Part shown: in pieces, positions 1 through 17,916 of the stretch
How the letters are laid out: each line of letters starts with the position of its first letter
Position numbering within the stretch: position 1 is the stretch's first letter
Assembly: GCA_035623075.1 (NCBI GenBank)
Contig: DASPUC010000038.1
Span: forward strand, 1 to 45,852
Direction: 5' to 3'
Source of the DNA: Nitrospiraceae bacterium
GTDB lineage: Bacteria; Nitrospirota; Nitrospiria; Nitrospirales; Nitrospiraceae
DNA: 45,852 nt
Made by a program: the position numbers and the translations under genes
Notes under the pieces: model-generated
Told to the model about the DNA's origin: nothing
The model's database searches: none
Seen by the model: only the letters and a program-made list of their open reading frames with translations

Positions 1-485
1 GTGCCGCCGCCGATCATCGTCGTAATGCCGGCAGAGAGGGCTTCCCAATATTGCTGAGGACAGATGAAGTGGATGTGGGTCTCCACACCGCCCGCCGTTA
101 CGATACAACCTTCCGCAGAAATAGCTTCAGTTCCCGGCCCAACTTCCATCCCCTTCGTCACGTTCGGCATGAGATCGGGATTCCCGGCTTTGCCAATCCC
201 GATGATACGCCCGTCCTTGATCCCGATATCCGCCTTGACGATCCCCCAATAATCGAGAATGACCGCGTTCGTGATGACCGTATCGAGCGCGCCGCTCGCG
301 CTGGTGGCTCGAGAAGACTGTCCCATCCCGTCGCGCAGAACCTTACCACCGCCGAAGACGGCTTCGTCTCCGTACGATGTGAAGTCTTTTTCGATTTCGA
401 TGAGCAGCTCGGTGTCGGCAAGTCGGACACGGTCGCCCACGGTGGGGCCGAAGAGATCCGCGTATTGTTTGCGTGGGATCTTCAT
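1..485 (-). CDS. ureC: Urease alpha subunit UreC, N-terminal part (cut by window edge)
   Basis: Encodes the catalytic alpha subunit of urease, which hydrolyses urea to ammonia and carbamate in the cytoplasm at a di-nickel site. Only about 161 N-terminal codons are present. The protein begins [20 protein letters not shown], the standard UreC start, and reaches the [11 protein letters not shown] stretch, whose HxH pair supplies two nickel ligands in the family. The ATG at 483-485 has an AGGAGG ribosome site a few bases upstream, which fixes the start. It lies 84 bp after ureB on the same strand, so the order is ureA-ureB-ureC. The rest of the gene and any accessory ure genes lie outside the window. 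Confidence 0.97.
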
Positions 486-3981: not shown

Positions 3982-4692
3982 TCATACCGTCAGATGCTGC
4001 TTCACCATTTCCGCGCTCAACTCATCACTTTTGCCCTGCGCCACCACCGCCCCTTTGGCCATGACCACGTACTTCTCTGCCAGCCGAGCCGCAAAATGAA
4101 GCCCTTGCTCAACCAGCAGAATGGAGAACCGTCTGGAGTTCTTGAACCCATTGATCACGTCTTCGATCTGATCGATGATCGAGGGTTGAATCCCTTCGGT
4201 TGGCTCATCGAGCAACAGGATCTTTGGCTCGGACAGCAATGCGCGCCCGATCGCGAGTTGCTGCTGTTCGCCACCACTCAAGACTCCGCCAGGCCGATCG
4301 AGAATCTGTGTCAGCTTGGGGAAGAGCTGATAGACTTCTTCGAACGCGGCCTTCTCGGAGATGCCGGTGGAAGAATGAGCTCGGGCCCAATATCCCAGTT
4401 GGAGGTTTTCCCGAACGGTCAGATGTGGAATGATCTCCCGTCCCTGCGGAACATAGGCAAGCCCTCGTTTCACTCGTCGATTCGTAACTTCCTTCGTCAT
4501 ATCTGTTCCGCCGATTGTGATCTGCCCAGACCGCGTCGGCAGCAACCCCATGATGGCCTTCAGGGTCGTCGTTTTTCCGACCCCGTTCCGTCCCATCAGA
4601 CAGGCAACCTGCCCAGGCTCGACAGTAAACGACACATCCCGAAGAATGTGGCTCTCGCCATAGTAGACGTTCAGTTTTTCGAGTTGAAGCAT
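3982..4692 (-). CDS. urtE: Urea ABC transporter ATPase UrtE
   Basis: Second ATP-binding subunit of the urea ABC transporter, of the branched-chain amino-acid (LivF-like) subfamily, on the cytoplasmic face. Walker A is GRNGVGKTT near residue 34, the ABC signature is LSGGEQQQLAIGRAL, Walker B is ILLLDEPTEG, and the switch His lies in the C-terminal third. The IQPSIIDQI segment after Walker B is characteristic of UrtE. Length 236 is normal. It is the last of urtABCDE. A 75-bp spacer with AGCTGA-type repeats separates it from urtD. Confidence 0.95.
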   Translation of the reverse strand: MLQLEKLNVYYGESHILRDVSFTVEPGQVACLMGRNGVGKTTTLKAIMGLLPTRSGQITIGGTDMTKEVTNRRVKRGLAYVPQGREIIPHLTVRENLQLGYWARAHSSTGISEKAAFEEVYQLFPKLTQILDRPGGVLSGGEQQQLAIGRALLSEPKILLLDEPTEGIQPSIIDQIEDVINGFKNSRRFSILLVEQGLHFAARLAEKYVVMAKGAVVAQGKSDELSAEMVKQHLTV

Positions 4693-4767: not shown

Positions 4768-5535
4768 TTATGCGTGCGTGACTTTCTGCCTCCCCAGGTA
4801 AATTTCACGCACACGAGCGTCTGCTTGGACTTTTTCAACAGGCCCTTCACAGATCACCGTCCCTTCGTGAAGGACGGTTACCGTCCTGGCGATTTGTCGG
4901 ACGAATTCCATGTCGTGCTCGATGACAACGATCGCATGTTTTTCCGCCAACGATTGGAGTAATCGCCCCGTCTGTTCAGTTTCTTTGTCCGTCATGCCCG
5001 CGACCGGTTCATCGACCAAGAGGAGCAAGGGATCTTGGAGGATTACCATCCCGATCTCAAGCCATTGTTTTTGACCGTGTGAGAGCGATTCGGCCCGTGT
5101 GTGTGCCTGATCCTTGAGTCCGATGGCTTCGAGGTTCTGGTCGATTCGTTCCCGCTCAGCCGTGGTGGATTTCCCCAGCAAGGTCGGGAAGACGCCTCGG
5201 CTCGAACGTTTTAGTGACAGATCGAGATTTTCCCAGACCGTGAGGTTTCCATAGATCGATGGTGCCTGGAACTTCCTCCCGATGCCGAGTTCCACGATCT
5301 CATCCTCTCGTTTCCCGATGAGATCGATATCCTTGCCGAAGATCACACGGCCGGCGGCCGGTATCGTCTTGCCGCAGACCACATCGAGCAGCGTCGTTTT
5401 GCCAGCCCCGTTCGGACCGATCACGACCCGCAATTCGTTGTAGTTGACGATGAAGTTAAGATTGTTGAGCGCCTTAAACCCGTCGTAGTCGACGATGACG
5501 CCTTCGAGATAAATAATGGACCCTCGTTCAGTCAT
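4768..5535 (-). CDS. urtD: Urea ABC transporter ATPase UrtD
   Basis: First ATP-binding subunit of the urea ABC transporter (LivG-like), 255 residues. Walker A is GPNGAGKTTLLD near residue 39, the signature is LSHGQKQWLEIGMVILQDP, and Walker B is LLLLVDEPVAGMTDKE. The LSHGQKQWLEI signature and VDEPVAGMTD are diagnostic of UrtD as opposed to LivG. It starts one base after the urtC stop, so translation is probably coupled. Confidence 0.96.
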   Translation of the reverse strand: MTERGSIIYLEGVIVDYDGFKALNNLNFIVNYNELRVVIGPNGAGKTTLLDVVCGKTIPAAGRVIFGKDIDLIGKREDEIVELGIGRKFQAPSIYGNLTVWENLDLSLKRSSRGVFPTLLGKSTTAERERIDQNLEAIGLKDQAHTRAESLSHGQKQWLEIGMVILQDPLLLLVDEPVAGMTDKETEQTGRLLQSLAEKHAIVVIEHDMEFVRQIARTVTVLHEGTVICEGPVEKVQADARVREIYLGRQKVTHA

Positions 5536-5536
5536 G

Positions 5537-6682
5537 TCAGCGCTTCCCCTCCGACAGGGCCACTTTGCTCACACCTGTTTCCATTGGCCGCAAAAGACTT
5601 GTGCTTCTCCTGATCACGCCGACCAGCCCATCAGGGAATAACAGGACCACCAACACGAAGAGTCCGCCGAGGATGAACGGCCAGAGTTCCGGGAAGTAAT
5701 TCGTGAGCACACTACGACCATAATTCACACTGACCGCTCCCAGCACCGCACCGGCCAGGCTGCCACGTCCACCGACCGCCACCCAAATCACCATTTCGAG
5801 CGAAGGCAGGACGCCGATTTGCGCCGGGGTGATGATCCCGACCTGAGGAACGTAGAGCATCCCGGCCAAGCCGGCCAATGCCGCCGCAACAACGAACACG
5901 AACAGTTTGTAATTTGCCGGAGTGTATCCCGAAAACACGACTCGCGGTTCGCTATCTCGAACAGCGATCAGGACCCGCCCCGCTCGGGATTTAATAATCC
6001 AGCGGCACAGGAGGTAGGACCCGCCCAGACACAAGACCGTCAACACATACAACGCCCGCTGAGTGCCGGGATCTGCGAGCCGAAACCCAAGCACCTGCTT
6101 AAAATCCGTCAATCCATTCGTCCCGCCAAGATTCGTTTCGTTCCGATTGAACACCAGCCATGCCACGAGGGCCAGGGCCTGTGTAATGATCGCGAAGTAC
6201 ACCCCTTTAATACGACTGCGGAAGGCCAGGAACCCAAAGACGAGTGCAAAAAGCGTCGGGATAAAGATCGCCCCCACCAAGGCCACAGGAAAACTGTAGA
6301 ACGGCTTCCAGAACAGGGGCAATTGTTTAACCTGGTTCCACACCATGAAATCCGGCAAGTCACTGCCGTACACGCTTTCCTTCCCGATCGTCAGCATGAG
6401 ATGCATGCCCATGCAGTAGGCACCAAGCCCGAAAAATACGCCCTGACCAAGACTCAAGATGCCTGTATAGCCCCAAATGAGATCGAGGCCCAACGCAAGA
6501 ATCGCAAAGGCGAGAAACTTCCCAAATCGATTGAGGCTGAAATCGGAAAGGTGCAGCCAGGAATCCTCCGGCGGCAGGACGTTCAAAAGGGGCATCGCGA
6601 CAAGCAGGACAAATCCCAGAAGCCAGAAGGCCAGCCCTTCAGCACGCGGCTGATCGTGCGCCACTGGTTCAAGACTCGGCAT
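5537..6682 (-). CDS. urtC: Urea ABC transporter permease UrtC
   Basis: Inner-membrane permease (LivM-like) that pairs with UrtB to form the urea path. About ten hydrophobic segments are visible, and the family loop appears as SRAGRVLIAVRDSEPRVVFSG in the C-terminal half. I chose ATG at 6680-6682 with AGGGG upstream, giving 381 residues; a TTG 18 bases earlier is less likely. The gene overlaps the end of urtB by 14 bp and leads directly into urtD, so the three are translated from one message. Confidence 0.95.
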   Translation of the reverse strand: MPSLEPVAHDQPRAEGLAFWLLGFVLLVAMPLLNVLPPEDSWLHLSDFSLNRFGKFLAFAILALGLDLIWGYTGILSLGQGVFFGLGAYCMGMHLMLTIGKESVYGSDLPDFMVWNQVKQLPLFWKPFYSFPVALVGAIFIPTLFALVFGFLAFRSRIKGVYFAIITQALALVAWLVFNRNETNLGGTNGLTDFKQVLGFRLADPGTQRALYVLTVLCLGGSYLLCRWIIKSRAGRVLIAVRDSEPRVVFSGYTPANYKLFVFVVAAALAGLAGMLYVPQVGIITPAQIGVLPSLEMVIWVAVGGRGSLAGAVLGAVSVNYGRSVLTNYFPELWPFILGGLFVLVVLLFPDGLVGVIRRSTSLLRPMETGVSKVALSEGKR

Positions 6683-8225
6683 GTCGCCCCTTGATAGCAA
6701 ATAATCCTGATGGGCGCCATTGGAGGAAGAGAATGACCAACACCAGAATCAGCACTTTGCCATAGACCGCTCCAAAGCTCGGCTCGAGCAATTTGTTCAG
6801 GCCGCCGATACCTAGCGATGCAACGATTGTCCCTGCCAGTTTTCCAACACCGCCGGTGACCACGACCATGAATGAGTCGACGATGTAGTTTTGGCCCAGC
6901 CCTGGCTCCACATTCCCAATAAGCGTCAGAGCCCAACCGGCCACTCCTGCCAACCCCGAACCGAAGGCAAAGGTATAGGCATCGACCTTGCGCGTAGGAA
7001 TTCCCAAGCAGGCACTCATGTTCCGATTCTGTGTCACGGCCCGTACGCGTAAGCCCAAGTTTGACCGAAATAGCAGCAGATAGATGCCCACGACACAGAC
7101 AATCGACAATCCGATAATAAAGATTCGATTGTACGGGAGATAGACTCCGACCATCACCTGAGCACCGCCGCTCAACCAATTTGGTGCCACCACCGCCGTC
7201 AGGTCACCGAAATAGACGCGCGCCGCCTGCATCAAGACCAGGCTTACCCCCCACGTCGCCAGCATCGTCTCCAGCGGGCGCCCATACAGGAATCGGATGA
7301 CGGTCGCTTCGAGTAGAAGGCCACACGCTGCTGCGGCAAGAAAGGAAATCGGCATGGCGAGCAGAAAGTACGAATCGAACATCGACGGCGAGAGATAGGC
7401 TCTAAACAATTCTTGCGTCACGAACGTCGCGTAGGCCCCGACCATCATCAGCTCGCCATGAGCCATATTGATCACGCCCATGAGTCCGAACACAATGGCT
7501 AATCCGAGTGACATGATGAGCAGTATCGAGCTGAGGCTGATACCGCGAAAAATTGTTTCGATCGCGCTCGACCATGCATTCCACGTCTCAATGCGCTCGA
7601 TCGCAGCCGCTGCGGCTCTCGCTATCTCTTTTTGCTGCTCGGTCGCCTCGGGTGCGTTACCGGCAACAACCAGTTCTTTCAAGCTTGGCGCGCCGTTCTG
7701 GCTGCGAAGCTCCCCGAGCTTCTGGACGGCGGAAATCTTGATCGACGGATCGTCCGACGTGAGACTCAGCAGCGCGGCAGACTCCTCCATCGTGTAGCGC
7801 ACCCATTTGTTCGGATCCTTCGTCGCTGCCTGTTCCAACCAAGGAATCGCGACGGTCCTGCCCATCGTACCGAGATCCGTGGCAGCCGATCGCCGGACGC
7901 CAACATCGTCACTCGAGAGATTCGCCCGATTCTTCAGCAGATCCATCAGAGGCTTGATGGCTTGCCGGATGGCGCGATCCGCGTTAGCGCGAAGTTCTTC
8001 CAACCTGGGCAAGAGACTCACATCCCCTTGCTCAATCAAGGTACGAATCGCTGCTTCACGAACCGTTTCATCCTCGCTGGTCACTTGAGCGAGAGCCTGC
8101 TCTACGGGAGGGGACGGAGGGGCCGTTGTCGGCCCCTCCGCCGCTCTCACCCAACTGTCACCAACGAAGAATAGGAGCCCGATAACGGTTAGAGCGACCT
8201 GTGCGAATCGCAGATAAATCTTCAC
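6669..8225 (-). CDS. urtB: Urea ABC transporter permease UrtB with N-terminal repeat domain
   Basis: Inner-membrane permease (LivH-like) of 518 residues. Residues 1-30 form a signal or membrane anchor. About 30-215 is a soluble helical region with HEAT-like repeats (EDETVREAAIRTLIEQGD, DDVGVRRSAATDLGTMG, DDPSIKISAVQKLGELR). The permease proper starts near residue 225, with the LivH-type loop LGLRVRAVTQNRNMSACLGI. A long N-terminal region of this kind is known for UrtB and is absent from amino-acid LivH. It overlaps urtC and lies 130 bp after urtA, with a hairpin in that gap. Confidence 0.95.
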   Translation of the reverse strand: MKIYLRFAQVALTVIGLLFFVGDSWVRAAEGPTTAPPSPPVEQALAQVTSEDETVREAAIRTLIEQGDVSLLPRLEELRANADRAIRQAIKPLMDLLKNRANLSSDDVGVRRSAATDLGTMGRTVAIPWLEQAATKDPNKWVRYTMEESAALLSLTSDDPSIKISAVQKLGELRSQNGAPSLKELVVAGNAPEATEQQKEIARAAAAAIERIETWNAWSSAIETIFRGISLSSILLIMSLGLAIVFGLMGVINMAHGELMMVGAYATFVTQELFRAYLSPSMFDSYFLLAMPISFLAAAACGLLLEATVIRFLYGRPLETMLATWGVSLVLMQAARVYFGDLTAVVAPNWLSGGAQVMVGVYLPYNRIFIIGLSIVCVVGIYLLLFRSNLGLRVRAVTQNRNMSACLGIPTRKVDAYTFAFGSGLAGVAGWALTLIGNVEPGLGQNYIVDSFMVVVTGGVGKLAGTIVASLGIGGLNKLLEPSFGAVYGKVLILVLVILFLQWRPSGLFAIKGRHAES

Positions 8226-8355: not shown

Positions 8356-9729
8356 TCACTTCTTCTGATAGGTGCCCTGATGGCTCACCCAGTCACAACC
8401 CTTCTCCGGATTCGTATACTCGCTCCAGGGTTCGGGTTTCACAAGCCCCTTCGAGCGAGACACGACCTTGAACTGCCCATCCTTGAGAATTTCTCCGATG
8501 AGCACGGGCTTGTAGGTGTGATGGTTGGCCGGGTCCATCATGATTTCGCCGCCTGGAGCGAGGAACTTGCTGCCGTATACTGCCTTCCTGACCTTATCCA
8601 CCTCAGTCGAACCGGCTTTTTCGACCGCCTGTTTCCAGATGTGCACCCCGAAGTAGGCCGCCTCAATTGGATCGTCGGTAACCCGCTTCTCGCCATCCGG
8701 CAAGTTGTTCTTCTTGCAATAGGCTTTGAAATCCGCCACGAACTTCTTGTTCTGCGGCGTATCGACGCTCTGGTAATAGTTCCACGCAGCCAAGTGCCCT
8801 ACCAGTGCAGTGGTATCCATACCCCGCAACTCGTCCTCCGCCACGCTGAACGCCATGATCGGCGCATCTTCGGCCCGTAGACCCTGATTGGCAAACTCCT
8901 TGTAGAACGGGACGTTGCTATCGCCGTTGATCGTACTGATCACACAGGCTCCACCACCGGCCGCAAACTTCTTAATCTTGCCGACGATGGTCTGATAGTC
9001 CTGGTGATGGAAGGGTGTGTACTCCTCCATGATGTTCGCCTCCGGCACTTTCTTGGCCAGCAACATGGCGCGCAGAATTTTGTTCGTCGTGCGCGGGTAC
9101 ACATAGTCCGTCCCTAACAGATAAAACTTCTTGTAGGCCCCGCCTTCCTTGCTCATGAGATATTCGACAGCCGGCACCGCCTGCTGGTTCACTGCCGCGC
9201 CGGTATAGAAGACATTGTGCGAGCATTCTTCGCCTTCATACTGGACCGGATAGAAGAGCAACCCGTTGTTCTTTTCGAACACCGGCAGCACAGACTTGCG
9301 GCTCACCGAAGTCCAGCAGCCAAACACCACGGTCACCTTGTCTTGCAACAAAAGCTGTTTGGCCTTTTCAGCGAAGAGGTCCCAGTTCGAGGCGGGATCG
9401 ACGACGACCGGCTGGATCTTGCGACCCATCACGCCGCCCTTGGCATTGATTTCCTCCACCGCCATCAGAACCACGTCGCGCAGTGAGACTTCACTGATCG
9501 CCATCGTGCCGCTTAAGGAGTGAAGGATGCCGATCTTAATCGGCTCCTTATCAGCTGCATAGGAGAGCGCCCAATTTCCGAGATTGCCCAAAAGCGCGGC
9601 AATGCCGACACCAGCCGTCACTCTGGCACCTTGCACTAAAAAATCTCGTCGTGAAGGACCAGCCTCCAGCATACTCGTGGTATCCGGCTCCTTGATGATG
9701 CTGGGCTTGTTAGGGTCATTCGATTCCAT
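8356..9729 (-). CDS. urtA: Urea ABC transporter substrate-binding protein UrtA
   Basis: Periplasmic binding protein that captures urea (or short amides) for UrtBCDE. It has 457 residues from the ATG at 9727-9729, chosen for the AAAGGAG site eight bases upstream. A twin-arginine export signal is visible (SRRDFLVQGARVTAGVGIAA, RR at 27-28). The mature protein opens with EPIKIGILHSLSGTMAISE, the UrtA/AmiC family start, and contains FGCWTSVSRKSVLPVFE and LLFYPVQYEGEECS, both typical of UrtA. It is the first of urtABCDE and lies 252 bp after the FmdC-like porin gene on the same strand. Confidence 0.96.
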   Translation of the reverse strand: MESNDPNKPSIIKEPDTTSMLEAGPSRRDFLVQGARVTAGVGIAALLGNLGNWALSYAADKEPIKIGILHSLSGTMAISEVSLRDVVLMAVEEINAKGGVMGRKIQPVVVDPASNWDLFAEKAKQLLLQDKVTVVFGCWTSVSRKSVLPVFEKNNGLLFYPVQYEGEECSHNVFYTGAAVNQQAVPAVEYLMSKEGGAYKKFYLLGTDYVYPRTTNKILRAMLLAKKVPEANIMEEYTPFHHQDYQTIVGKIKKFAAGGGACVISTINGDSNVPFYKEFANQGLRAEDAPIMAFSVAEDELRGMDTTALVGHLAAWNYYQSVDTPQNKKFVADFKAYCKKNNLPDGEKRVTDDPIEAAYFGVHIWKQAVEKAGSTEVDKVRKAVYGSKFLAPGGEIMMDPANHHTYKPVLIGEILKDGQFKVVSRSKGLVKPEPWSEYTNPEKGCDWVSHQGTYQKK

Positions 9730-9981
9730 CGTCAGGCTCCTTTCGCTAACGTAATGATGTGTACTACCTTTAAAACATGCCGTCCTTGTTCTTCTTTTGT
9801 ATTCTGTCCGAGTCAATGGACGTCGTTCTCCACGCGTCAACCCGTATACTCCTAGAAAGTGTTAGCCCTCTCTCGCAAGAGATCATCGTCCCTCAAGCAG
9901 AGATGAACCTGGTGCGCGAGATAAAACAATCCATCATCGGCTCGTCCAAACACAGAGAAACTCTAGTAACACTTCGTCTTC

Positions 9982-11316
9982 TTAGTACTGGACCTGGAAG
10001 GCCACCTTGAAAGCATTATGATGATCACCCGTCGCAGTGTTGGAGTAATTCGTGCCCAGGGAGGAAAGATTGCCATACTGCCAGTATGCCGCAAGGCGCG
10101 CGTTATGGCCGGCAATGATGTAGTTCGTGCCGAGTTCCGTTTCCTGGCGATTTTGGCTGTTATTAGGCACAACGGACGTATATCTGGCATAGGGCTGAAA
10201 TTGCCCCATCAATCCCGCAATCCCTACTTTATCCGGAAATAGATACATGCCGGTCGCGTAGTAGGAATGCCCGTCAAACATACAGAAGCAGCCATTAGGA
10301 TTACCACCAGCGGCTTGAAAGGGCGCCGAAAAGGCACCGGTCGATGACGAGTTGTTGTAATTTGCAAAGAACTGTTGCCACTCAGCATTGACCGTAATCA
10401 CACCCTTGTCCCCGCTGTTACCAAGTGGTTTCTCAAACAGGAGGTCGGAGGTAAGGTACGTGAGATCCGCCTGATTAACTATTGTTCCAGCACCATTTTT
10501 CTGGTGTTGCGCCGCAAATGCGATCGCGAGAATATCGCCGGCTTTGCCGTAGTAGGTCCCGCTTGTGTAATAACCAGGATTCTTCTCTGGGTTCCAAAAG
10601 TTGTAGGTGAGGCGTCCCGCATACAAGAAGCTGTTTTGTTGATTAGGTCCTACACCTGCTCCTGACTGGAGTCCCGTGAACAGCCCGACGCTATATTGCA
10701 AATGACCATACGCTGGGTCGACTTGGCCCCAGAAGACCAAGCCGTTGTCACGGCCGTAGACACCAGCCCCGCCAGTGCCGAATTTCCCGGCGAAGTCTGC
10801 GGACTCAAACGGCGTCTTATACTGTTCGAAGACCGCTGAGTAGAACGGACCATTCAGCTCGCCGCGCGATGCTGGCACCAACAAACGCCCGGCCCAGACA
10901 TTCACGTACTGATTGAACTCGAACTTCCCGATCGCATCGAGCAAACCGATATTGGTTGTACCGTTCCCGCCATTGGATGTTTGACCGAACGGATTGCCCC
11001 CCTGACCATTGCAATCAAAGCATTCGGTGTTGAACTCGAACTTGATAACCTTCGTGATTCCACCGTTGATATAGATACGAGCGTTGCCGATCCCGAAGCT
11101 GTTGTTGTAACTCCCCCCGTTCGCTGACCCGTTTTCCACCGCCGCGAACCCACCACGAATACCCATTCCGATGGAAATCCACTGGTCCCCGTCCTCGCTC
11201 TTGATCATGCCAGCCGCGTACGCACTCGGCAGCGTGAATGCCATCCCAGCCAACAGCACCACGACGGCCCCGGCAATTAAAAATGCTTTCCACCATCCAA
11301 TTTGGCGTGTCTTCAT
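9982..11316 (-). CDS. Outer-membrane porin, FmdC-like (putative urea/short-chain amide porin)
   Basis: 444 residues with a clear signal peptide (cut near AYA-AG at 35) and alternating beta strands rich in G, N, Y and F through to a terminal QVQY. Strand motifs such as ARIYINGGITKVIKFEFNTE and NVWAGRLLVPASRGELNGPF fit phosphate/amide-type trimeric porins. In nitrifiers and methylotrophs a porin for short-chain amides and urea (FmdC) is found beside urea transport genes, and the position just before urtA fits that. Substrate is not provable from sequence. The ATG has a GGGAGG site upstream. The 5' leader is about 390 bases and carries an ANTAR-type dual-hairpin terminator. A Cys pair in EFNTECFDCNG (and CFC further on) is unusual for a porin. 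Confidence 0.8.
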   Translation of the reverse strand: MKTRQIGWWKAFLIAGAVVVLLAGMAFTLPSAYAAGMIKSEDGDQWISIGMGIRGGFAAVENGSANGGSYNNSFGIGNARIYINGGITKVIKFEFNTECFDCNGQGGNPFGQTSNGGNGTTNIGLLDAIGKFEFNQYVNVWAGRLLVPASRGELNGPFYSAVFEQYKTPFESADFAGKFGTGGAGVYGRDNGLVFWGQVDPAYGHLQYSVGLFTGLQSGAGVGPNQQNSFLYAGRLTYNFWNPEKNPGYYTSGTYYGKAGDILAIAFAAQHQKNGAGTIVNQADLTYLTSDLLFEKPLGNSGDKGVITVNAEWQQFFANYNNSSSTGAFSAPFQAAGGNPNGCFCMFDGHSYYATGMYLFPDKVGIAGLMGQFQPYARYTSVVPNNSQNRQETELGTNYIIAGHNARLAAYWQYGNLSSLGTNYSNTATGDHHNAFKVAFQVQY

Positions 11317-11598: not shown

Positions 11599-11644
11599 AA
11601 AAAAAAACGCCCTTCCGGTCCCTCTCCTGGACCAAAAGGACGTC
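11599..11644 (-). terminator. Intrinsic terminator in the leader of the FmdC-like porin gene
   Basis: On the minus strand ACGTCCTTTTGGTCC (from 11645) pairs over 15 positions, allowing G-U pairs, with GGACCGGAAGGGCGT around a seven-base loop, followed by nine T (11607-11599). It lies about 280 bp before the porin start codon, so it would stop transcription before the gene. Its 5' arm shares bases with the hairpin at 11636-11653, so the two cannot both form. Confidence 0.85.
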
Positions 11645-11694
11645 ATTGTCCTTCGATGAATTCGGTCTTGAAACCTTGGACTCCATTGTCCAAG
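11636..11694 (-). promoter_or_regulatory. ANTAR-type dual-hexaloop antiterminator element before the FmdC-like porin
   Basis: Two perfect hairpins with six-base loops lie in tandem on the minus strand. The first is CTTGGAC-AATGGA-GTCCAAG (11694-11675) and the second AAGGAC-AATGAC-GTCCTT (11653-11636). Both loops have A at position 1 and G at position 4, the invariant bases of ANTAR-protein RNA targets. The 3' arm of the second hairpin is part of the 5' arm of the terminator that follows. Binding of an ANTAR dimer would stabilise the hairpins and allow read-through into the porin and probably urt genes. A GAF-GAF-ANTAR protein is encoded 5 kb away. Confidence 0.8.
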
Positions 11695-11715
11695 TCGTGA
11701 CCGTACGGCGAGGTA

Positions 11716-11745
11716 TTTATAGAGGTCATGTCTTCTTCTTGTCAA
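11716..11745 (-). promoter_or_regulatory. Sigma-70 promoter of the FmdC-like porin leader
   Basis: TTGACA (11745-11740) and TATAAA (11721-11716) on the minus strand are 18 bases apart, a near-consensus promoter. Predicted transcription starts near 11709, about 15 bases before the first hexaloop hairpin, so the whole antiterminator element would be in the RNA. Confidence 0.75.
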
Positions 11746-14694: not shown

Positions 14695-14766
14695 GTGGCT
14701 GAGGGGAGTGAACATTGACGTTCTCTCCGCCAGCCACATAAAAAGAGAGGACAATGACGTCCTTTT
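14695..14766 (+). promoter_or_regulatory. ANTAR-type dual-hexaloop antiterminator element before the short lipoprotein gene
   Basis: The first hairpin is an outer GTGGCTG/CAGCCAC stem (14695-14701 with 14731-14737) enclosing GGAG-T-GAAC, loop ATTGAC (14714-14719), GTTC-T-CTCC. The second is AGGAC-AATGAC-GTCCT (14748-14763), extendable by three pairs to 14745-14766. Both loops have six bases with A1 and G4. The second hairpin shares its 3' arm with the terminator at 14757-14800. The second hairpin and terminator are nearly identical in sequence to those before the FmdC-like porin, while the first hairpin differs in sequence but keeps the loop rule. Confidence 0.8.
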
Positions 14767-14800
14767 GGCTCGAGTTCAGAGCCGGAAGGGCGTTTTTTTT
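14757..14800 (+). terminator. Intrinsic terminator in the leader of the short lipoprotein gene
   Basis: ACGTCCTTTTGGCTC (14757-14771) pairs along its length, with a few G-U pairs, with GAGCCGGAAGGGCGT (14779-14793) around a seven-base loop, and a run of eight T occupies 14793-14800. It lies 38 bp before the start codon, so the gene is expressed only by read-through. Formation excludes the second hexaloop hairpin. Confidence 0.87.
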
Positions 14801-14837
14801 CTCGCGTGAGTCGGCACGAGCACGAGGAGGACATGAG

Positions 14838-15224
14838 ATGGGACGGCTGGCTATTCGGCTTCTGCTGATTGCAGCCCCACTGTGGGGCTGCGCAACTCAA
14901 AATTCTCCTGAGGTCTTGCTGAACCAGGCGTTGCGGGACCAAGACGCTGCGTATCTCAGGTTGACCAATGCCATTGGAAGATACTGCTCGGTGAGTAATA
15001 ATTCTTTTGAAAGCAGTCAAAACTGCGTTCTCGAGAAGCTGACGGTCCTGCGAGCCGAGCAGGCCCGGAAGGTCCCCAGTTTATCCGATCTCTCGATGAT
15101 GCCCGCTCTTTCGCTCAGCGTGGACGAGCATCCCCAGGTCGCGAATGTGAACTGTGCACGCACCCGAATCGCGACAACCTGTCACCGGGTACCGCCACCA
15201 GTGACTCAGACCGGCCTGAACTAG
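14838..15224 (+). CDS. Short putative lipoprotein, leader-regulated
   Basis: 128 residues from the ATG at 14838, chosen for the GAGGAGG site seven bases upstream; a longer frame from 14754 would start inside the terminator and is rejected. The N-terminus MGRLAIRLLLIAAPLWGCAT is an export signal ending in Cys-18 with a non-ideal lipobox (LWGC). The mature part is small and helical (LLNQALRDQDAAYLRLTNAI) with several Cys. I recognise no family. Its placement behind an ANTAR-type antiterminator suggests it belongs to the same regulon as the FmdC-like porin. Confidence 0.7.
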   Translation: MGRLAIRLLLIAAPLWGCATQNSPEVLLNQALRDQDAAYLRLTNAIGRYCSVSNNSFESSQNCVLEKLTVLRAEQARKVPSLSDLSMMPALSLSVDEHPQVANVNCARTRIATTCHRVPPPVTQTGLN

Positions 15225-16650: not shown

Positions 16651-17916
16651 CTACCTTCGTCGCTCTTCTGCCCGTTCCTCGATCTCCCCGGCTAATAACA
16701 CGGCCTCGGCAATTTCCCGCATGGATTTCCGAAGGTCCATGCTCTGCCGCTGGATCAATTTGAAGGCCTCCTCCTCCGTTAGCTTCTTTGAGCGCATCAG
16801 GTATCCCTTCGCCCGTTCCAACAACTTTCGGACAGCCAGCGCTTCCTGCATCTCAAAGGATTTTTCCAGGAGCGTGGTGTGCTCAATCGCAATGGCCACT
16901 TGATTCGCGATGGCCTGTAACAGCTTTACTTCCTCCGCCGAAAACGCATGGGGAACGGACGTATAGCAATTAATCACTCCCACGGCTTTTTCCCGAATCA
17001 TCATCGGAACGGAGAGGAGCGAGCAGAGCCCCTCTTTTCGCGCCAGATCCGGATACATGTAATCTCGCTCTTGTGTGACATCGGCGACGATAATCGGCCG
17101 CCGTTCTTGCACGGCACGCCCGCTGATGCTTTGGCCGACTTTCAGATTGGGTTTTCGCCGATATTGTTCGCTGAGACTCTGCGTCGCCGCGATTCTCAAC
17201 TCACCACTTGCTTCGTCCAGTAGCATGATCGAACAGATTTTCGAGTTCATCATCTGTGCCGTCATCGTGACGAGAAGCTGTAACACATCTTCGATCAATC
17301 GATTCGATGCGACTGTCTCCGACACTTGCGACAACGTTTCCACTTGCAAAGCCTTGCGCCTCATCTGTTCGTAGAGGCGAGCGTTCTCGATGGCTCCACC
17401 GACCTGATTGGCGATCGTCGAAAGAAGAGCCAACTCATCAGGCCGGTACCGTTTGGGGCGTTTGTGTTGGACATTGATGACTCCAACGACTTCCTTCTTT
17501 GCCATGATCGGGACCGATACGAACGCTTGATGGCGATCCTCTGGAAGATTATGGAAGAACTTAAAGCGCGAGTCTTCACTGGCATTGCTTGGGATCACGA
17601 CCCGAGTCCGTTCACGAGCCACCCATCCTGTGATGCCCTCCCCCATTCCGAGCGTGATCCTTCCGATTAATTTGGGATGAGGATTCTTCGACGCTCGCAG
17701 AATCAACTCGTCCCGACCTTCAGAAAGAAGATACAGGAGACAGGCATCCGCTTTCGTCACTTCTACGACCACCTCCACGATGTGTTTCAAGACCGCTTCG
17801 AGATCCAGCGTGTTGCTGATCGAATCGGTGATTCGATGCAAGACGTCGACTTCGCGGGTTTTTTCTCGCAAGGCCTGCTCAAGTTGATCGATTGAGAGTG
17901 TTCGTTTCGTCGACAT
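16651..17916 (-). CDS. GAF-GAF-ANTAR transcription antitermination regulator
   Basis: 421 residues. A short N-terminal coiled coil (about 8-30) precedes two GAF sensor domains (about 39-178 and 205-345). A helical linker then leads to a C-terminal ANTAR RNA-binding domain (about 355-411) with the hallmark AKGYLMRSKKLTEEEAFKLI and MREIAEAVL. ANTAR proteins (AmiR, NasR, EutV) bind paired six-base-loop hairpins in leaders and prevent terminator formation. Two such leaders lie in this window. There is no receiver domain, so the input is probably a small ligand or signal sensed by the GAF domains; its identity is unknown. It starts seven bases after the aroB stop, without a close ribosome site, so it is probably translated by coupling to aroB. 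A tail fragment of a second copy lies at 12735. Confidence 0.93.
   Translation of the reverse strand: MSTKRTLSIDQLEQALREKTREVDVLHRITDSISNTLDLEAVLKHIVEVVVEVTKADACLLYLLSEGRDELILRASKNPHPKLIGRITLGMGEGITGWVARERTRVVIPSNASEDSRFKFFHNLPEDRHQAFVSVPIMAKKEVVGVINVQHKRPKRYRPDELALLSTIANQVGGAIENARLYEQMRRKALQVETLSQVSETVASNRLIEDVLQLLVTMTAQMMNSKICSIMLLDEASGELRIAATQSLSEQYRRKPNLKVGQSISGRAVQERRPIIVADVTQERDYMYPDLARKEGLCSLLSVPMMIREKAVGVINCYTSVPHAFSAEEVKLLQAIANQVAIAIEHTTLLEKSFEMQEALAVRKLLERAKGYLMRSKKLTEEEAFKLIQRQSMDLRKSMREIAEAVLLAGEIEERAEERRR

Follow-up and report, generated by a model that had tools for sequence, protein, structure and literature searches.

What does the short leader ahead of a porin-like gene in a Nitrospiraceae genome do, which protein would act on it, and which genes does it serve? 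The leader (positions 11599-11745, minus strand) lies in the window, that is, the whole stretch of DNA analysed, a complete contig of 45,852 nucleotides. An earlier note had read it as an ANTAR-type two-hairpin antiterminator, and both its anatomy and its conservation in relatives support that reading. We consider it very probable that the leader is an ANTAR antiterminator within a nitrogen-assimilation regulon governed by one GAF-GAF-ANTAR protein, the product of 16651-17916.

Anatomy of the leader and the genes behind it

The promoter, the two hairpins and the 15-bp terminator with nine T that the earlier note had described were all found at 11745-11599 on the minus strand (Table 1), as was the interval of about 280 nt to the porin start. 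Our promoter scan requires T as the last base of the -10 box and thus did not list the leader promoter; in many relatives A/T-rich -10-like boxes (TATAAG, GTATAG) are found about as far ahead of P1. The leader folds with a z-score of -4.26, none of 200 shuffles being equally stable, and the model energies of P1, P2 and the terminator are -10.7, -7.2 and -24.9 kcal/mol, respectively. The 3' arm of P2 is reused by the terminator, whose 5' arm begins within the P2 loop, so that the two structures are mutually exclusive; the terminator is by far the more stable, and termination is thus the predicted default.

A strict search for two ANNGNN hairpins with stems of 5 bp or longer, together with an overlapping terminator and a T run returned this leader as its single match in the window, and nothing in 60 dinucleotide shuffles of the window (2.75 Mb of shuffled sequence). 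No Rfam family covered the element, either at the gathering threshold or in a relaxed search. The leader is built as ANTAR targets are, with two adjacent short hairpins whose six-base loops carry A1 and G4 and with a second hairpin that excludes, and is excluded by, an intrinsic terminator, and the host genome encodes an ANTAR protein.

No terminator-like site was found between the porin gene and urtA on the operon strand, and the arrangement element-porin-urtABC is found repeatedly throughout the order Nitrospirales; transcriptional read-through into urtABCDE, as had been proposed, is therefore likely. The 'FmdC-like' label previously given to the porin is weak, Pfam having no match to this protein and the sole NCBIfam match (ExtI) lying below cut-off. 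At its left end (1-120, minus strand) the window breaks within ureC, which continues on contig C15 (positions 1-76, L157) with an overlap of about 15 bases. Because of this overlap urt, ureABC, ureF, ureG and the genes of C15 probably form one genomic region. Antisense to the minus-strand start of ureC, positions 46-333 (plus strand) match the Rfam family 5_ureB_sRNA with 86.7 bits, a match that may reflect coding conservation only.

Table 1. Coordinates of the leader, the second element and the associated genes in the window
Feature	Position	Strand	Basis or remarks
Sigma-70-like promoter	11716..11745	-	Sequence: -35 TTGACA 11745-11740, spacer 18 nt, -10 TATAAA 11721-11716
P1 hairpin CTTGGAC-AATGGA-GTCCAAG	11675..11694	-	7 bp, hexaloop with A1 and G4; stem covaries in relatives
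P2 (antiterminator) hairpin AAGGAC-AATGAC-GTCCTT	11636..11653	-	6 bp, hexaloop with A1 and G4; near-invariant in relatives
Intrinsic terminator ACGTCCTTTTGGTCC/GGACCGGAAGGGCGT	11599..11643	-	15 bp, 7-nt loop, arms 11643-11607, T9 tract 11607-11599
Outer-membrane porin-like protein, first gene after the leader	9982..11316	-	Below-cut-off NCBIfam match to porin ExtI
urtA, urea ABC transporter binding protein	8356..9840	-	TIGR03407, above cut-off
urtB	6669..8225	-	TIGR03409
urtC	5537..6700	-	TIGR03408
urtD	4768..5535	-	TIGR03411
urtE	3982..4692	-	TIGR03410
Second full ANTAR element	14704..14801	+	P1 14705-14728 (loop ATTGAC), P2 14747-14764 (loop AATGAC), terminator 14757-14793 + T8
Small lipoprotein-like gene after the second element	14838..15224	+	Relatives (31-43% identity) also preceded by an element
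GAF-GAF-ANTAR protein, likely antiterminator	16651..17916	-	Pfam; search of own genome

Copies of the element and their target genes

The host genome carries five clear copies of the element and one degenerate copy. The second full element of the window, absent from the earlier note, scored 84 bits (E 2.4e-15) against a covariance model of whose seed it was itself a member, and a separate BLAST search with the first leader also found it (match at 14748). On contig C15, copies outside the model seed (E 9.5e-9, 2.3e-6 and 4.5e-6) lie before nitrogen operons, one element standing ahead of nadE-amt-glnB-glnD-glnA and a tandem pair ahead of nrtABC-cynS, and a weak sixth copy precedes amt; the restriction to porin and urt in the earlier note was thus too narrow. 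Counting against our reading, the P1 loop of host element 5 has G, not A, at position 1. Two small lipoprotein-like families, represented by the gene behind the second element and by L159:9115-10035 (minus strand), bear the element in several genera and for that reason probably belong to nitrogen scavenging.

Searched by BLAST, the leader on its own had matches in 61 of 175 family genomes. A covariance-model search in relatives, which had been put forward as a check, was run with a model built from 32 seed sites and placed the element in 111 of the 175 genomes and in all 22 genera. At 69 non-seed sites compensatory change was seen in 17 of 22 pairs and 94.9% of cells were paired, against 46.7-55.9% in slid controls, in an alignment that was fitted to the model and is hence biased toward the modelled structure. 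At the same sites G4 was invariant in both loops (69/69 each) and A1 was kept in 64 of the P1 and 65 of the P2 loops. The predicted stems and loops are thus conserved with compensatory change, as in an ANTAR target. A constitutive attenuator, with fixed low read-through or with another factor (ribosome, sRNA, Rho) acting without ANTAR, would be in keeping with a terminator much more stable than P2; we regard it as very improbable, since A1 and G4 are retained in nearly all hexaloops though unnecessary for termination, and since the presence of the element tracks that of the ANTAR gene (below).

In a phylum-wide sample another Nitrospirales family also had the element, and outside the order only one weak match was obtained. 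When named genomes were scanned for the pattern, the matches came from MAGs that bear the label Nitrospira, Nitrospirales, Nitrospiraceae, Nitrospirae or Nitrospirota, together with one Nitrosospira-labelled record. The P2-terminator sequence is highly alike between sites, as it would be in a dispersed repeat (MITE or REP-like) that carried a terminator by chance. This candidate was rejected as next to impossible, given the fixed orientation and placement just before nitrogen operons, the compensated changes in the P1 stem, the variable spacers, the low copy number per genome and the persistence in two families.

Among 112 elements from relatives and the host genome, approximately 83 stand directly before operons for the uptake of ammonium, urea, nitrate/nitrite or cyanate, several of which include PII and GlnD. 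By target, 25 elements precede nadE (mostly nadE-amt-glnB-glnD), 24 a BBP2 porin (mostly followed by amt-glnB), 14 nrtABC-cynS and 11 porin-urt, the remaining targets being amt, nitrite-transporter, cyanase and carbonic anhydrase genes and the two lipoprotein families. The second Nitrospirales family has the element before nadE-glnD, porin-urtAB, nrtABC-cynS, nitrite transporter genes and a sigma-54 activator gene. Judged by this gene context, the element marks a predicted nitrogen-assimilation regulon of Nitrospirales and not porin/urt alone, standing as it does ahead of the majority of genes for taking up ammonium, urea, nitrite and cyanate in the order. The known gene content of the canonical Nitrospira nitrogen cluster matches these targets, and the section of PMC6311188 devoted to that cluster does not treat its regulation.

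Some placements stand apart. The sigma-54 activator gene follows the element at three loci of the second family (L238, L247, L249), with a nitrite transporter gene adjoining in two of the three, and two-layer control is possible there. Several genomes of genus g17 have porin orthologs seemingly without an element in front. In one g17 genome (G139, L202) the element precedes a histidine kinase gene, with the porin farther along the same strand and the ANTAR gene just upstream; in this one case the kinase gene may be an insertion. A LuxR-type regulator is the element target in another g17 genome (L188).

The GAF-GAF-ANTAR protein and its co-occurrence with the element

The ANTAR protein which the earlier note had placed at 16651-17916 was confirmed as such, and a search of the 3.39-Mb assembly found no other ANTAR gene. 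By sequence, its ANTAR domain matches Rv1626, EutV, NasR and AmiR. Seven of eight RNA-contact positions of EutV are identical (Arg142, Lys143, Lys149, Glu160, Met172) or conservative (Lys147 to Arg, Tyr164 to Phe), Tyr164 being the residue on which loop G4 stacks in EutV (PMC8934654). Counting against RNA binding of this kind, EutV Arg168 is replaced by Gln in all 36 Nitrospirales proteins examined, though Rv1626 also has Gln. At the equivalent position in NasR, R366, an alanine mutant does not bind.

The best solved relatives of the GAF domains include the PtsP GAF domains and the NifA-like NLH1, so that on sequence likeness only the domains most resemble PtsP and NifA-type nitrogen regulators. 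Pfam gave no NIT domain match in the protein, which has two GAF domains instead and is thus not of the NasR type, and the adjoining gene is aroB, with no AmiC-like partner next to it as in AmiR/AmiC. The parallel with AmiR drawn earlier is therefore weak, and domain architecture and neighbour indicate no amide-specific signal. A substrate-specific switch of the AmiR or NasR kind, in which the ANTAR protein would answer urea, amide or nitrite chiefly for porin-urt, gains some credit from the substrate induction of AmiR and NasR and from the occurrence of the element before porin-urt in many genera. It is nevertheless unlikely, because the element also stands before genes for ammonium transport, PII, GlnD, NadE and cyanate use, all served by one ANTAR gene, and no single substrate would account for such a set, and because both NIT domain and AmiC-like partner are missing.

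Of the 175 genomes, 102 have both ANTAR gene and element and 62 have neither, while nine have the element only and two the ANTAR gene only. Most of the nine are incomplete; G070 and G117, each 99% complete, have one weak element apiece and no ANTAR match. All 17 of the more distant element-bearing genomes that were checked have exactly one ANTAR gene, and in several of them the element starts within about 400 nt after it. This co-occurrence, together with the logic of the targets, supports the view that the protein at 16651-17916 acts on the leaders.

The 62 genomes lacking both gene and element all belong to one genus, g15, in which amoA is present in 48 of 65 ANTAR-negative genomes versus one of 14 ANTAR-positive ones. 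Amt in g15 follows the ANTAR gene, being present in 14/14 ANTAR-positive genomes and, among the 65 ANTAR-negative ones, in G062 only. A 54% complete bin, G071, has amoA, ANTAR and Amt together, contrary to the genus pattern; it represents either a genuine exception or a bin of mixed content. In genus g17 the amoA-positive genomes retain ANTAR, and those listed for Amt also have Amt. Clade A comammox is described as using Rh and clade B as using Amt (PMC6311188). The Amt/ANTAR split fits this difference, from which we infer the clade names, the amoA-positive g15 genomes without element and Amt being comammox clade A. Confined as it is to one genus, the co-loss may have been a single event, so that the p-values for co-occurrence exaggerate how independent the cases are.

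A predicted antitermination switch and its relation to known systems

In the mechanism we propose, the nascent RNA would fold as the terminator when active protein is absent, and transcription would halt before the porin gene. Once active, the protein would bind the A1/G4 hexaloops of P1 and P2 through its ANTAR domain and hold P2, the terminator could not form and polymerase would continue into porin-urtABCDE. The other copies would act likewise for nadE-amt-glnB-glnD-glnA, nrtABC-cynS and the small lipoprotein gene, and probably for amt. Anatomy, covariation, element-protein co-occurrence and target genes are the observed part of this explanation; binding and antitermination would follow by analogy with EutV and NasR. 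Nitrospirales thus probably run their nitrogen supply by stopping and releasing transcription via one RNA-binding protein.

Since a nitrogen-starvation response would have just these targets, we infer that nitrogen limitation opens the switch and that nitrogen status, in the form of 2-oxoglutarate, glutamine or PII, is what the GAF domains sense, with nitrate, nitrite or another signal as a possible alternative. Elsewhere the global nitrogen-starvation response is run by NtrC, NtcA or GlnR at promoters. In the Nitrospirales genomes the NtrC equivalog cut-off was passed in one of 175, NtrC-family regulators are many and NtrC function may still exist. We tentatively suggest, as a serious possibility, that their global response is antitermination, the GAF-GAF-ANTAR protein reading 2-oxoglutarate, glutamine or PII and releasing the terminators before all nitrogen-scavenging operons, and that clade A comammox gave it up along with Amt on turning to ammonia as energy source. 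The same regulon could instead obey GAF domains that respond to redox, nitrite or energy state, since such domains bind many ligands and the likeness to PtsP and NifA is one of sequence. This seems to us quite possible, though less likely than not, as nearly every recognised target is a gene of uptake or assimilation, and genomes without Amt, for which ammonia is the energy substrate, lack the system as well.

Searches of the open-licence literature turned up neither a paper on ANTAR control in Nitrospira nor a description of how nitrite oxidisers control nitrogen uptake, and within these bounds the previous statement that such control was undescribed for nitrifiers holds. The concept itself is older: for ammonium, PII and urea genes of other bacteria it appeared in 2012 (PMC3369931), where a covariance search of 1902 genomes predicted ANTAR elements ahead of PII genes, ammonium and urea transporter genes, nitrite genes and glutamine synthetase genes, with nitrogen regulons in Desulfotomaculum acetoxidans and Pelobacter. 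Those predicted regulons lie in other phyla and Nitrospira is absent from the main text; the available text describes neither the nitrifier porin-urt, nadE-amt-glnB-glnD and nrt-cynS units nor a single GAF-GAF-ANTAR protein and its joint absence with Amt. New here are the nitrifier regulon, its GAF-GAF-ANTAR regulator, the porin and lipoprotein targets and the absence with Amt in part of comammox, which ties absence of the regulon to a change in energy metabolism. With one regulator, its RNA sites and most targets named, a single protein and a handful of leaders would be enough to test the whole regulon. RNA targets are thereby supplied for the GAF-ANTAR architecture, of which the available text of PMC3369931 and PMC7496416 names no characterised member.

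The closest counterparts are the EutV targets of the Enterococcus eut genes (Ramesh et al. 2012, PMC3369931; structure PMC8934654), which likewise have two A1/G4 hexaloop hairpins, the second overlapping an intrinsic terminator, and more than one element copy per genome. In contrast, EutV is a phosphorylated response regulator, whereas the GAF-GAF-ANTAR protein implies no two-component kinase, and the targets here are those of nitrogen uptake and assimilation. The NasR-nasF leader system of Klebsiella (PMC7496416) shares a one-component sensor-ANTAR protein, the C:G closing pair, A1 and G4, and antitermination of a nitrogen operon; NasR differs in sensing nitrate/nitrite through a NIT domain for one operon, compared with two GAF domains and a multi-operon regulon here. 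AmiR-AmiC of Pseudomonas also couples ANTAR antitermination to a short-amide operon, although AmiR has a pseudo-receiver held by the amide sensor AmiC, in place of which the Nitrospirales protein has GAF domains and no AmiC neighbour.
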